Assembly (NCBI RefSeq): GCF_004010155.1
Contig: NZ_RRYH01000004.1
Location: 1 to 32,737 of the forward strand
DNA length: 32,737 nt
From: Solirhodobacter olei
GTDB lineage: Bacteria > Pseudomonadota > Alphaproteobacteria > Rhodobacterales > Rhodobacteraceae
Direction: 5' to 3'
Under the pieces are notes generated by a model. That model did no database searches. It was not told where the DNA came from and saw nothing but the letters and a program-made list of their open reading frames with translations. Positions 17,897-26,894 of the stretch are shown one piece after another (position 1 is the stretch's first letter; every line of letters begins with the position of its first letter). The translations under genes and the position numbers were made by a program.

Positions 17897-17975
17897 GGAA
17901 ACAGAGGCAATGGGGAAATTTACCCCGGCCGACAAACTGCCTAGAGTGCGCGGGTTTTGAGCAATGGAGACGCCG

Positions 17976-19271
17976 ATGGCGGAGCTGATCCTGGGCCAGA
18001 CCCTCGCCTTCACGGCGGACCCGTTTGCCCACGGGCCCGAGGCCGCAAGGCATGAAGCGAAGGGCGCCATCCTCGTGGAAGATGGCCGCATCGCCGATCT
18101 TGGCCCCGCGGACAGGCTGCGCGCCGCGCATCCGCAGGCGAAGGTCACGGATTGCGGCTCCGCGCTGCTCTCGGCGGGTTTCATCGACGCCCATGCGCAT
18201 TACCCGCAGACCGCGATGATCGCCTCCTGGGGCAAGCGGCTGATCGACTGGCTGATGAGCTACACCTTCCCGGAAGAGATGCGGTTTTCCGATCCCGCCT
18301 ATGCCGCCACTATCGCGCGGCGCTACTTCGACCTCACGCTGTCCTACGGCACGACGACGGTCTGTTCCTTCGGCACGATCCACCCCGACAGTGTCGAGGC
18401 CTATTTCACCGAGGCCCGGGCCCGCGGCCTGCGCGCGCTGACCGGCAAGACCTGCATGGACCGCGACACCGCGCCCGAGGGCCTGCGCGACACCGCCCGT
18501 TCCGCCTACGACGACAGCAAGCGCCTGCTGGAGAAATGGCACGGGGTCGACCGGCTCTCCTATGTCATCACCCCGCGTTTCTCGCCCACCTCCACGCCAG
18601 AGCAGCTCGCAGCCCTGGGCGCGCTCTGGGCCGAGCACCCGGACTGCCTCATGCAGACCCATCTCTCCGAACAGACGGACGAGGTCGCCTGGGTGAAGTC
18701 GCTCTACCCCGAGGCGCGCGACTACCTCGACACCTACGAGAAATTCGGCCTGCTCGGCCCCGGCGGCCTCTACGGCCACGCCATCCACCTCGAGCCGCGC
18801 GAGATCGAGCGGCTCAAGGAAGTCGACGCGAGCCTCATCCACTGCCCGACCTCCAACACCTTCATCGGCTCGGGCATCTTCGACATGGGCGGGCTAACCG
18901 CAGCGGGCCACCGCGTGGGGCTTGCCACCGACACCGGCGGCGGCTCCTCCTTCTCCATGCTGCGCACCATGGCCGCGGCCTACGAGCTGGCCCAGCTCCG
19001 CCACCGCGCGCTCCACCCGGCGGAGCTCTGGTGGCTCGCCACCCAGGGGTCGGCCCGCGCGCTCAGGCTCGACGACCGCATCGGCAACCTCGCCCCGGGG
19101 ATGGAGGCCGACATCATCGCGCTCGACCTCGCGTCCACCCCCGCCATCGCCCAGGCCAGCGCCCGGGCAGAGACGGTCTGGCAGGCGCTCTTCCCGACCA
19201 TCATGATGGGCGACGACCGCGCGGTGAAGGCCGTCTGGGTCGGCGGCAGGAAGGTCGGCGCCCCGGCCTGA
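17976..19271 (+). CDS. guaD: Guanine deaminase
   Basis: This 431-residue zinc amidohydrolase converts guanine to xanthine and ammonia. The metal HxH motif lies in DAHAHYPQ near residue 72, TCMDRD near 160, MQTHLSEQTDEVAWVK near 228, LIHCPTSNTFIGSG near 288 and LATDTGGGSSFSMLRTM near 310, all typical of GuaD. The start at 17976 is preferred to an ATG four codons upstream (17964) because GGAG lies six bases before it and the upstream ATG has no ribosome site. A long hairpin follows the gene. An 8-oxoguanine deaminase-like gene lies two genes away, convergent, pointing to a purine salvage locus. Confidence 0.93.
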   Translation: MAELILGQTLAFTADPFAHGPEAARHEAKGAILVEDGRIADLGPADRLRAAHPQAKVTDCGSALLSAGFIDAHAHYPQTAMIASWGKRLIDWLMSYTFPEEMRFSDPAYAATIARRYFDLTLSYGTTTVCSFGTIHPDSVEAYFTEARARGLRALTGKTCMDRDTAPEGLRDTARSAYDDSKRLLEKWHGVDRLSYVITPRFSPTSTPEQLAALGALWAEHPDCLMQTHLSEQTDEVAWVKSLYPEARDYLDTYEKFGLLGPGGLYGHAIHLEPREIERLKEVDASLIHCPTSNTFIGSGIFDMGGLTAAGHRVGLATDTGGGSSFSMLRTMAAAYELAQLRHRALHPAELWWLATQGSARALRLDDRIGNLAPGMEADIIALDLASTPAIAQASARAETVWQALFPTIMMGDDRAVKAVWVGGRKVGAPA

Positions 19272-20094: not shown

Positions 20095-21429
20095 TCAGCC
20101 CATCAGCCGCCGGACCAGCACATTGGCCCGGTCCACGGTGCGCTCCAGGTCGATCGTCCGGACCGCCCCGCCGGCGACCACCTGTCGCCCCTCCACGAAG
20201 AGATCGCGCACCCGCATCGGCCCGGCCAGCAGCAGGGCCACCGGGTCCCAGCTCCCCGCGCTCTCGATGCCGGAGACATCCCAGACCGCCACATCCGCGC
20301 GCTTGCCGGGTTCCAGCGCCCCGCAGTCGTCGCGGCCCAGCACCCGGGCGCCGCCCAGCGTCGCGATCTCCAGCGCCTCGCGCGCGGCCATCGCGTCGGC
20401 CCCGCCCGCAACCCTTTGAAGCAAAAGCATTTGTCGCGCTTCCGCGATCAGGTTCCCCTGGTCGTTGGAGGCCGAGCCGTCAACGCCCAGCCCGACCTTC
20501 ACGCCCCGGTCCCGCATCGCCCGCACCGGCGCGATCCCCGATCCCAGCCGGCAGTTCGAGCAGGGGCAATGCGCCACGCCAGTGCCGCTGCGGGCGAACA
20601 GATCGATCTCCCCCGCGTCGAGCTTCACGCAATGCGCATGCCAGACATCCGCGCCCGTCCAGCCCAGATCCTCGGCATATTGTCCCGGCCGGCAGCCGAA
20701 ATTCTCCCGGCTGTAAAGAATATCCTCATCGTTTTCAGCCAGATGGGTATGCAGCATCACCCCCTTGTTCCGCGCCAGCAGGGCCGCATCCCGCATCAGC
20801 TCGCGGCTGACCGAGAATGGCGAACAGGGCGCAACGCCCACCCGCACCATCGCCCCGGGGCGTGGGTCGTGGAAGGCGTCGATGACGCGGATGCAATCCT
20901 CCAGGATCGCCGGCTCCGCCTCGACAAGGCTGTCCGGCGGCAGCCCGCCCGCGCTTTCGCCGATCGACATCGCGCCGCGGGTCGGATGGAACCTCAGCCC
21001 GATCTCGCCCGCCGCCGCGATCGTGTCATCGAGCCGCGCGCCGTTCGGGAAAATATAGAGATGGTCAGAGGTTAGCGTGCACCCCGTCAAGGCCAGCTCG
21101 GCCAGCCCGATGAGGGTGGAGACATGCATCTCCTCCGGCCCGAACCGCGCCCAGATCGGGTATAGCGTCTTCAGCCAGCCGAAGAGCAGCGCATCCTGCC
21201 CGCCCGGCACCGCCCGCGTCAGCGTCTGGTAAAGATGGTGATGGGTGTTGACGAGACCCGGCGTGACGACGCAACCCCGCGCCTCGATGACCTCGCCCCG
21301 GCTCTGTAGCCCCTGCCCAACCGCCGCGATGCAGCCATCCCGGATCAGCACGTCGCCTCCGGCGATCTCCGCCCGGCCGGCATCCATGGTGACAACGCAA
21401 TCCGCGCCGCGGATCAAGACTTCCTTCAT
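20095..21429 (-). CDS. 8-oxoguanine deaminase-like amidohydrolase
   Basis: The 444-residue zinc amidohydrolase belongs to the TrzN/AtzB/8-oxoguanine deaminase branch. The metal motif is THHHLYQT (His63-65), followed by HTHLAEND, WHAHCVKL, HCPCSN and the catalytic Asp in GLGVDGSASND, a signature of this branch. Characterised members deaminate 8-oxoguanine to urate or hydrolyse s-triazines; guaD nearby makes the purine substrate more likely. The ATG has GGGAG six bases upstream. The leader carries strong competing helices over this ribosome site. It is convergent with the methyltransferase gene. Confidence 0.85.
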   Translation of the reverse strand: MKEVLIRGADCVVTMDAGRAEIAGGDVLIRDGCIAAVGQGLQSRGEVIEARGCVVTPGLVNTHHHLYQTLTRAVPGGQDALLFGWLKTLYPIWARFGPEEMHVSTLIGLAELALTGCTLTSDHLYIFPNGARLDDTIAAAGEIGLRFHPTRGAMSIGESAGGLPPDSLVEAEPAILEDCIRVIDAFHDPRPGAMVRVGVAPCSPFSVSRELMRDAALLARNKGVMLHTHLAENDEDILYSRENFGCRPGQYAEDLGWTGADVWHAHCVKLDAGEIDLFARSGTGVAHCPCSNCRLGSGIAPVRAMRDRGVKVGLGVDGSASNDQGNLIAEARQMLLLQRVAGGADAMAAREALEIATLGGARVLGRDDCGALEPGKRADVAVWDVSGIESAGSWDPVALLLAGPMRVRDLFVEGRQVVAGGAVRTIDLERTVDRANVLVRRLMG

Positions 21430-21499
21430 AGAATGCTCCCACAGTCCTCCCCTTCGGTCCGTGGGATCCGGCCGACAGAAGGGGAAAGGACTCGGCCAG
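21430..21499 (-). promoter_or_regulatory. Structured leader RNA with competing helices over the ribosome site
   Basis: In the leftward transcript three helices compete. Helix 1 pairs CTGGCCGA (21499-21492) with TCGGCCGG (21475-21468), with one G-U pair. Helix 2 pairs GTCC plus TCCCCTTC (21491-21478, two-base bulge) with GAAGGGGAGGAC (21455-21444). Helix 3 pairs TCCCAC (21466-21461) with GTGGGA (21442-21437), which contains the GGGAG ribosome site. Helix 2 interlocks with both others, while 1 and 3 are compatible, giving an on state (2) and an off state (1 plus 3), or a pseudoknot with a shortened helix 2. No known riboswitch class is recognised. Confidence 0.5.
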
Positions 21500-21504
21500 C
21501 CGCG

Positions 21505-21532
21505 ACAATATCAAATCACACCGACCAGGCAA
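21505..21532 (-). promoter_or_regulatory. Sigma-70 type promoter of the 8-oxoguanine deaminase-like gene
   Basis: TTGCCT (21532-21527) and TATTGT (21510-21505) are separated by 16 bases. Each matches four of six consensus positions. The predicted start near 21498 gives a leader of about 70 bases that begins just at the first helix. Confidence 0.45.
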
Positions 21533-21590
21533 TGCCACCGCAGCCCGGGATCAACCCCATGTTTCTTATTGGAAAATATAATGACCCGCC

Positions 21591-21607
21591 GGGGGCGTCT
21601 CGCCCCC
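21591..21607 (-). terminator. Terminator after hisN
   Basis: GGGGGCG and CGCCCCC enclose TCT, 18 bases beyond the hisN stop. Leftward transcripts continue GGCGGGTCATTATATTTT, so a diffuse U-rich stretch follows. Confidence 0.6.
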
Positions 21608-21624
21608 ACCCGTCGCCCGCCGGA

Positions 21625-22431
21625 TCAGGGCGCGCGCGACAGGATCTCCAGCGCCGCGGCGTGGATCTCGGGATTGGCCGCCGCCAGCACCCGGCCGCCG
21701 CCATGGGCCGGCCCGCCGCGCCAGTCGGTCACGATCCCGCCCGCCGCCTGGATCACCGCGATCGGGGCGTGGACGTCATAGGGCTGCAGCCCGGCCTCGA
21801 CGACGAGGTCGATCTGCCCCGCCGCGATCAGCGCGTAGGCGTAGCAATCCGTGCCGTAGCGCGTCAGCCGCACCTTTGCCGAAAGCGCGCGGAAGGCCGC
21901 GCCCTCCTCAGCGGTGCCGACCTCGGGGAAGGTGGTGAAAAGGATGGCCTCGCCAAGCGCCCGCGGCGCCCGCGCCTTCAGCGCCCGCCGGCCGAGCGGC
22001 CCGTCGACCCGCGCCTCGCCCAGCCCGCCGAGGAAGCGCTCGCCGATATAGGGCTGATCGATCACGCCCAGCCGCGGCCCGTCGGCGTCGGAAAGCGCAA
22101 CCAGAACGCCCCAGGTCGGCGTGCCCGAAAGGTAGCCGCGCGTGCCGTCGATCGGGTCCAGAACCCAGGTCAGCCCGCTCCGGGTTTGGACCGGACCCAT
22201 CTCTTCGCCGAGGATGCCGTCCTGCGGCCGCCGTTCCGCGATCAGCGCACGCATCGCCGCCTCCGCGGCGCGGTCCGCGACCGTCACCGGATCGAAGCGC
22301 TCGGTTTCCTTGCTGTCGGCACTCAGGCCCTCGGTCCGGAAATGGCGCAGGGTGGCACCCCGTGCCACCTCGGCCAGTTCCTCGGCCAGGGCGATCAGCC
22401 CGGCGCGATCCGTATCGGGAATATGGGTCAT
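21625..22431 (-). CDS. hisN: Histidinol-phosphatase, inositol monophosphatase fold
   Basis: The 268-residue Mg2+-dependent phosphatase resembles HisN, which removes phosphate from histidinol phosphate in histidine synthesis. Metal ligands are Glu76-Glu77 in GEEMG, Asp92 and Asp95 in LDPIDGT, and the Asp in YDVHAPI near the C-terminus. TRGYLSGTPTWGV after the DPIDGT motif is the HisN-like version rather than the SuhB one. The start at 22431 (MTHIPDTD) is preferred to a longer frame nine codons upstream. It lies 69 bases after the XRE regulator on the same strand. Inositol or other monophosphates remain possible substrates. Confidence 0.85.
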   Translation of the reverse strand: MTHIPDTDRAGLIALAEELAEVARGATLRHFRTEGLSADSKETERFDPVTVADRAAEAAMRALIAERRPQDGILGEEMGPVQTRSGLTWVLDPIDGTRGYLSGTPTWGVLVALSDADGPRLGVIDQPYIGERFLGGLGEARVDGPLGRRALKARAPRALGEAILFTTFPEVGTAEEGAAFRALSAKVRLTRYGTDCYAYALIAAGQIDLVVEAGLQPYDVHAPIAVIQAAGGIVTDWRGGPAHGGGRVLAAANPEIHAAALEILSRAP

Positions 22432-22500
22432 CTGGCGCCCCCGGCTTGCCGCCCCCACGCGGTAGCCGTCGGCGGGACGCCGGTCAAGGACCGGCAGCCG

Positions 22501-26458: not shown

Positions 26459-26508
26459 CGTGACCGGCGGCCCCGGAAGCACCCCTGAGAGGGCCCTTGG
26501 GAAGCCAT

Positions 26509-26894
26509 GCGCGGATGGCCTGTAAGCCGGATTCTGTCCGGGGGTTCGCACCCCCTGGACGGCCATTCCTCTGCGCCCGCCGTTGCCGACGGGCTCTAGC
26601 TGCCAACCCGGGCCCCTGGGCTGAAGCGTCCCTGCGGATCCGGATCGCTCCGGCCGCGCGGGGCCCCTATTCGGCATTGCTCCCGGTGGGGCTTGCCATG
26701 CCGGTCCTGTTGCCAGTCCCGCGGTGGGCTCTTGCCCCACCGTTTCACCCTTGCCGCCGCCCGAAGGCGCAGGCGGTCTCTTCTCTGTGGCGCTTTCCCT
26801 CGGGTTTCCCCGGCCGGGCGTTACCCGGCACCGTTGCTTCATGGAGTCCGGACTTTCCTCGGGGTCGCCCCCGCGGCCGTCCAGCCATCCGCGC
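26509..26894 (-). ncRNA. rnpB: RNase P RNA (bacterial type A)
   Basis: This RNA is the catalytic subunit of RNase P, which removes the 5' leader of precursor tRNAs. The universally conserved GAGGAAAGTCCGGACTCC occurs at 26860-26843 and the 3' conserved AGAATCCGGCTTA at 26535-26523. The two ends, GCGCGGATGGC and GCCATCCGCGC, pair to form helix P1, which fixes the boundaries to within a few bases and gives about 386 nt, a normal length. GGTGCCGGGTAACGCCCGGC and GGGGAAACCC stem-loops are also recognisable. Its promoter overlaps the end of the amidase gene. Open frames crossing the RNA on both strands are spurious. Confidence 0.97.

Follow-up and report, generated by a model that had tools for sequence, protein, structure and literature searches.

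A covarying, Shine-Dalgarno-sequestering leader upstream of 8-oxoguanine deaminase-family genes: a candidate for a new riboswitch class

The deaminase locus and its leader

The window analysed here is a 32,737-nucleotide stretch of Solirhodobacter olei DNA. The putatively regulated gene spans 20095..21429 on its minus strand and encodes a 444-amino acid protein of the 8-oxoguanine deaminase family. A first-pass annotation, made from the letters of the DNA, had called the gene 8-oxoguanine deaminase-like, a name borne out by a score of 670.9 bits for NCBIfam model NF006055 (cut-off 532). The second-best NCBIfam model for the protein is PRK12393, which stays below its cut-off (395.8 of 543 bits), and the best PDB chains are 3hpa_A (E 1.8e-168) and 7ww2_A (E 1.2e-164), the latter named 8-oxoguanine deaminase. 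For a relative in a Rhodobacteraceae bacterium, PMC13054789 (2026) demonstrated N2,N2-dimethylguanine hydrolase activity; 8-oxoguanine is thus a putative substrate in this family. The guaD gene that had been placed nearby was located at 17964-19271 on the plus strand, as a guanine deaminase (NF006679, 592 bits) convergent with the 8-oxoguanine deaminase-family gene. The window also holds a bacterial RNase P RNA of class A at 26507-26892 on the minus strand (272.5 bits).

The leader lies between the deaminase start at 21429 and a hisN-like gene at 21625-22458 (TIGR02067, just above cut-off). Inspection of the window sequence located all three stems that the first-pass annotation had drawn, on the minus strand and at the same coordinates. 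P1 pairs 21499-21492 with 21475-21468 (CUGGCCGA/UCGGCCGG; 8 bp including one U-G), and its first base would fall at about the expected transcript start. In the long stem, 21491-21478 pairs with 21455-21444; the portion that we call P2 joins CCCCUUC (21478..21484), within the P1 loop, to GAAGGGG (21449..21455), within the P3 loop. P3 pairs the anti-Shine-Dalgarno strand UCCCAC (21466-21461) with GUGGGA (21442-21437). Conserved letters stand between the strands: GUCCUU (L1, 21486..21491), UG (L2, 21476..21477) and a CC preceding the P2 3' strand (21456..21457). The Shine-Dalgarno sequence GGGAG (21440-21436), which the annotation had described as buried, is covered by P3 at four of its five bases, and the AUG stands at 21429.

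Folding of the S. olei leader as a single sequence did not go beyond chance (minimum free energy -33.6 versus -30.2 +/- 3.6 kcal/mol, z -0.93), and 41 of 200 shuffles folded as well as the window leader. On comparative sequence grounds the three helices are confirmed as real; what shows them is the comparison of leaders described below, not single-sequence folding.

A sigma-70-like promoter pattern was located at 21505..21532 on the minus strand, with TTGCCT (21532-21527) separated by a 16-nt spacer from TATTGT (21510-21505), and the transcript would accordingly be expected to start at about 21499-21497, at the first base of P1. A stricter consensus scan of 21400-21660 returned no promoter, and no terminator-like site was found in the same interval. 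The pattern TTGN3-N16..18-TANNNT occurs in 54 of the 98 leaders compared below, whereas 200 base-shuffled sets averaged 1.4 occurrences and never exceeded 5; the 54 cases are not independent because the leaders are related. Counted from the guanine of L1, the preferred positions are -41 to -47 for TTG and -18 to -24 for TAnnnT. Such a positionally fixed pattern supports the plausible promoter of the first-pass annotation, which had placed the transcript start just before P1.

Comparison of orthologous leaders

Three models were used: R1, built from 21 leaders, R2, built from 98, and R3, made for a diverged group of leaders that we refer to as type II. The model and match step was entered by 100 of 115 pattern-picked leaders, and the resulting alignment (A4) has 98 rows, four of 102 matches having been omitted (L001 on the plus strand, L003 68-98, L041 1070-1100 and L057). 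The leaders were chosen by pattern and by a model that contained the P2 pairs, so P2 was partly selected for; P1 and P3 pairing was absent from the leader-picking model.

The helices covary in these leaders. In the 98-row alignment, 86 cells of the P1 and P2 pairs are changed on both sides compared with 21 in shuffles, and none of 500 shuffles reached as high a count. All three pairs of the P1 core (CGA/UCG) show changes on both sides with 100% of cells paired, the variants being A-U, C-G, U-G, U-A; C-G to U-A; and G-C to A-U. For P2, both sides are changed at four of seven pairs, the other three being invariant, and 95.3% of cells are paired. Because the 98-row alignment was fitted to P2, an alignment-free test was added, in which each strand region was paired with its own partner and with the partners of other species and the duplex energies were compared. 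The mean energy with the own partner was better than in all 10,000 permutations for the outer part of P1 (z -11.2), for P2 (z -9.5) and for P3 (z -13.6), the P3 value being -14.74 versus a permuted -10.64 +/- 0.30 kcal/mol (0 of 10,000 as good). The result was repeated with 17 dereplicated leaders (z -5.1, -4.4 and -4.3, respectively). Conservation and covariation in orthologue leaders had been named beforehand as the test of the proposed structure, and P1, P2 and P3 came through it in the 98 leaders. A structured mRNA leader with covariation is one general criterion for a riboswitch, and this leader is of that kind.

In individual leaders P3 stands out less: the own partner ranks first in 5 of 98, and no more than 4 of the 97 others do better in 27 of 98, counts that include misplaced start codons in L183 and L191. 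A blunter signal is expected here because one P3 strand is always purine-rich. Unbroken P3 complementarity of at least 6 bp was found in 82 of 98 leaders, as a raw count with no control. The P3 strands of L070, L101, L105, L116, L156, L180 and L188 are often near-identical in sequence (UCACACUUC/GAAGUGUGA), a likeness beyond that required of a free pairing element. P1 length and loop length are negatively correlated (rho -0.56), a result set aside as largely built in by the way the loop was measured.

Burial of the ribosome site extends beyond S. olei. Of six Shine-Dalgarno bases, the predicted P3 3' strand holds four or more in 73 of 98 leaders, two or more in 94 and none in 4. Another general criterion for riboswitches is an expression platform that touches the Shine-Dalgarno sequence, the start codon or a terminator, and in these leaders it is the Shine-Dalgarno sequence that is touched, through P3.

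The conserved order is P1 5' strand, GUCCUU, P2 5' strand, UG, P1 3' strand, P3 5' strand, (A)CC, P2 3' strand, P3 3' strand and AUG, an interleaved A-B-A'-C-B'-C' topology (P1-P2-P1'-P3-P2'-P3') in which P2 connects the loops of P1 and P3. L1 reads GTCCTT in 93 of 98 leaders and GCCCTT in 5, the leaders having been picked by sequence and type II differing here. By simple read-out L2 is TG in 91 of 98; the remaining seven correspond to the seven rows gapped at column 35, a gap that displaces the read-out by one. CC precedes the P2 3' strand in 96 of 98 leaders, and ACC in 75.

The 12-bp helix that the first-pass annotation had drawn survives in part. Its 7-bp core, 21484-21478 with 21455-21449, is conserved, but the outer GUCC/GGAC part is no commoner than chance, as at least 4 bp are possible there in 59 of 98 leaders versus 56.4 expected. 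The full 12-bp helix is thus the S. olei version, and the two-state model that had been derived from it finds no support as a conserved feature; the conserved form is the shortened H-type pseudoknot that had been offered as a second option. Pairing of L1 with the Shine-Dalgarno sequence is enriched but carries no information on a second state: at least 5 bp are available in 66 of 98 leaders versus 43.7 in shuffles, and any Shine-Dalgarno sequence would have this effect. We know of no conserved alternative pairing that would free this site. When P2 is held open, the median folding energy of what remains, chiefly P1 and P3, is -23.5 kcal/mol; P2 is part of the optimal nested structure in 37 of 98 leaders.

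The type II leaders (alignment A5), from Ruegeria, Roseovarius and others (L072:2928-2983, L060:2922-2975, L067:2922-2973 and eight more), precede the same gene and by eye have the same helix order. Their L1 is UUCUU and their L2 is C(G/A), and the CC preceding the P2 3' strand is often lost. Changes on both sides occur in four of six P1 pairs, a count reached by 81 of 500 shuffles, and the P2 columns, perhaps badly chosen, have 79.5% and 50% of cells paired. These leaders were excluded from the energy tests of P1, P2 and P3. R3 has 16 genome matches, 15 of which precede the orthologue. Type II is possibly a variant with an altered, putative binding site.

Distribution and relation to known RNA classes

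When 149 family genomes were searched at the plain DNA level, eight other matches turned up, of 77-96% identity, and all eight lie directly upstream of the orthologous deaminase gene. We take the family to be Rhodobacteraceae because nearly all of the best 80 named genome loci are labelled with this name or those of its genera, a few being labelled only Alphaproteobacteria. At E <= 1e-100 the deaminase protein occurs in 297 of the 394 genomes of the family, and R1 matches were found in 132 of 394 (E <= 1). All R1 places to E 0.0081 were inspected, and 80 of the 81 are directly upstream of an orthologue of the 8-oxoguanine-deaminase family; the sole exception, L200, is without an orthologue, at the start of another reading frame. 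The motif starts 63-113 nt from the gene in the 50 places measured.

Model R2 recovers 41 of the 80 named loci (E <= 0.05) and R3 recovers 12 others. Among the other 27, the gene start coincides with the upstream gene's end or is within about 25 nt of it in about 11 (by eye), one is cut by a contig end, and a few may have diverged leaders. Leaderless orthologues (L061, L062, L080, L091, L097, L102, L106, L110, L118 and others) often start where the upstream gene (hisN-like by eye) ends or just inside it; this suggests that in them loss of the switch accompanies translational coupling. On the other side of the deaminase gene, the largest group of next-downstream open reading frames in the named loci (30 of the 75 with one) resembles guanine deaminase by eye.

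Before other genes, the family genomes yielded only apparent chance matches. The places inspected were the R1 rows to E 0.07 with three weaker ones and, from a later search, the 30 best with 16 others; those without an orthologue are L200, L203, L205-L208, L237-L239 and L241-L249. Outside the family, seven orthologue-less places were found in 289 class genomes (among them a few family members) and two in 249 phylum genomes, in each case with E 7.1e-4 or worse, and by eye the seven class places are motif fragments without the complete core. These class-wide and phylum-wide searches, which score a few first-look candidates per genome under strict filters and may therefore miss distant members, gave no credible member beyond the family. 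The RNA thus appears so far to occur in one family alone, Rhodobacteraceae by its named members.

In line with the statement of the first-pass annotation that no known class is recognised, no Rfam 15 family reached threshold for the leader in the window, in the leader itself or at 20 other leader loci. A low-threshold scan with 4227 Rfam families covered 21380-21660 at E <= 10 and the 20 other loci at E <= 3. At the leader it returned only matches to drz-agam-1 (RF01787; 20.5 bits, with a gathering score of 37 bits) and ffh, and no Rfam family matched at the leader in the 20 other loci. The NMT1 (xanthine riboswitch) model, which we take to be among the scanned families, gave no match in 21380-21660 or at the 20 other loci at these thresholds. 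The models of SAM-II and preQ1-II, presumably included in Rfam, and of the SAM/SAH riboswitch (RF01727) gave none in the window, the leader or the 20 other loci. Many of the motifs in a 2017 list of 224 are reportedly in Rfam by now.

SAM-II and preQ1-II are small pseudoknots with translational control, which they share with the leader; the leader differs in having the P3 stem around the P2 3' strand, a different layout from theirs, and in matching neither model. The SAM/SAH riboswitch is a small pseudoknot that sequesters the Shine-Dalgarno sequence. PMC2864571 describes it as exclusive to Rhodobacterales and as lying immediately upstream of metK. The leader resembles it in clade and in its association with a single gene, but the gene is another one, the model does not match, and the leader has a third helix that sequesters the Shine-Dalgarno sequence. 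In the text examined of PMC8632094 and PMC2864571, the Rhodobacterales motifs belong to cco, cysS and metK genes; neither main text contains the word deaminase. No such RNA is named in the accessible portions of the literature on riboswitches together with this enzyme, the ligands or the clade, a scope outside which preprints and most subscription papers fall, or in those of the literature mentioning 8-oxoguanine deaminase. According to PMC7373994, NMT1 RNAs switch genes off with xanthine or uric acid and precede, among others, PRK12393 deaminases. NMT1 is like the leader a small translational RNA of Proteobacteria before purine-degradation genes, including these related deaminases; it is unlike the leader in its two-stem structure with a bulged conserved core.

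A possible switch and its ligand

The helices, their covariation, the burial of the Shine-Dalgarno sequence, the promoter-like pattern and the association with a single gene support a candidate switch of no known class, of the pseudoknot type that sequesters the Shine-Dalgarno sequence and starting at a promoter-like site. From there we infer metabolite binding, the identity of the ligand, the direction of switching and the arrangement in three dimensions. We consider it rather likely that the leader is a cis-acting translational riboswitch of a new class, working in either direction, and it is probably a new switch controlled by a small molecule. Support comes also from the NMT1 purine riboswitch, which precedes, among others, PRK12393 deaminases, PRK12393 being the second-best model of the deaminase (below cut-off).

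In the proposed mechanism, transcription would start at P1, and the P1 hairpin loop CCCCUUC would pair with GAAGGGG in the P3 hairpin loop to form a chain pseudoknot. Closed P3 would shut the gene, with the ribosome-binding site sitting in its 3' strand. The near-invariant, unpaired GUCCUU, UG and CC adjoin the P1/P2 junction and would bind a small guanine-type molecule tied to the reaction of the enzyme. That the ligand is a purine, as the first-pass annotation had supposed, is a guess; we would infer a guanine-type base. In the ON version of the switch, the substrate would stabilise P1-P2 and loosen P3. Provided that the leader is a riboswitch, the chances of an ON switch seem about even and those of an OFF switch somewhat lower, with ON slightly favoured. 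We lean to ON because P3 alone is predicted to be stable enough to silence the gene: in 93 of 98 leaders the predicted hairpin of the P3 region reaches -8 kcal/mol or lower (median -14), which argues that it has to be opened. A point against the proposal is that P2 and P3 look sterically compatible, so that it is not obvious how a bound ligand would open P3. Taken in all its particulars, the proposal would be of a new class in which a chain pseudoknot of three helices recognises 8-oxoguanine or N2,N2-dimethylguanine and switches on the enzyme for its removal; in this form it is tentative and rather unlikely.

Product feedback would give an OFF switch instead: the enzyme's xanthine or urate would stabilise P1-P2-P3 jointly, keeping the ribosome site locked. 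NMT1 (PMC7373994), which shuts down genes for the making of oxidised purines, offers a precedent, and the P3 strands leave the seven P2 bases free, these bases having been excluded by the design of the test, so that one drawing can accommodate all three helices; against this, a P3 predicted to be closed unaided in 93 of 98 leaders leaves little to switch off. We regard this reading, which is included in the likelihood given above to a riboswitch of either direction, as a doubtful but serious one. It is clearly less probable that the pseudoknot is recognised by a protein, the deaminase itself or another RNA-binding protein, that represses translation. The verified high-scoring places are associated with one gene, as in autoregulatory leaders, but a compact pseudoknot with a small conserved core of unpaired bases would rather be expected of an aptamer for a small molecule, and to our knowledge amidohydrolases are not RNA-binding proteins. 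An RNA thermometer or a plain translation-dampening hairpin, in which P3 alone would matter, would fit a helix that is stable and variable in sequence; it is very improbable, as it would leave unexplained both the covariation of P1 and P2 and the conservation of GUCCUU, UG and CC. Least probable of all is a self-cleaving ribozyme of the HDV type, for although drz-agam-1 shares the interleaved P1/P2 and similar letters in one species (21501-21446, E 0.065), its match is below the gathering score, replaces 13 model positions by 4 nt and was not taken further after none was found at the 20 other loci, and the P3 of the leader spans the Shine-Dalgarno sequence.

If the proposed switch is real, it would be an unlisted riboswitch class with a distinct layout: two hairpins connected through their loops by 7 bp, one hairpin holding the ribosome-binding site. 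PMC13054789 describes a cluster in which enzymes such as the Rhodobacteraceae one fall together with xanthine-making N2,N2-dimethylguanine hydrolases and the Pseudomonas 8-oxoguanine deaminase; with both activities in one cluster, the question of the ligand and that of the substrate are linked. The ligand of the leader should then point to the true substrate or product of the Rhodobacteraceae "8-oxoguanine deaminase", for which 8-oxoguanine and N2,N2-dimethylguanine are the candidates.
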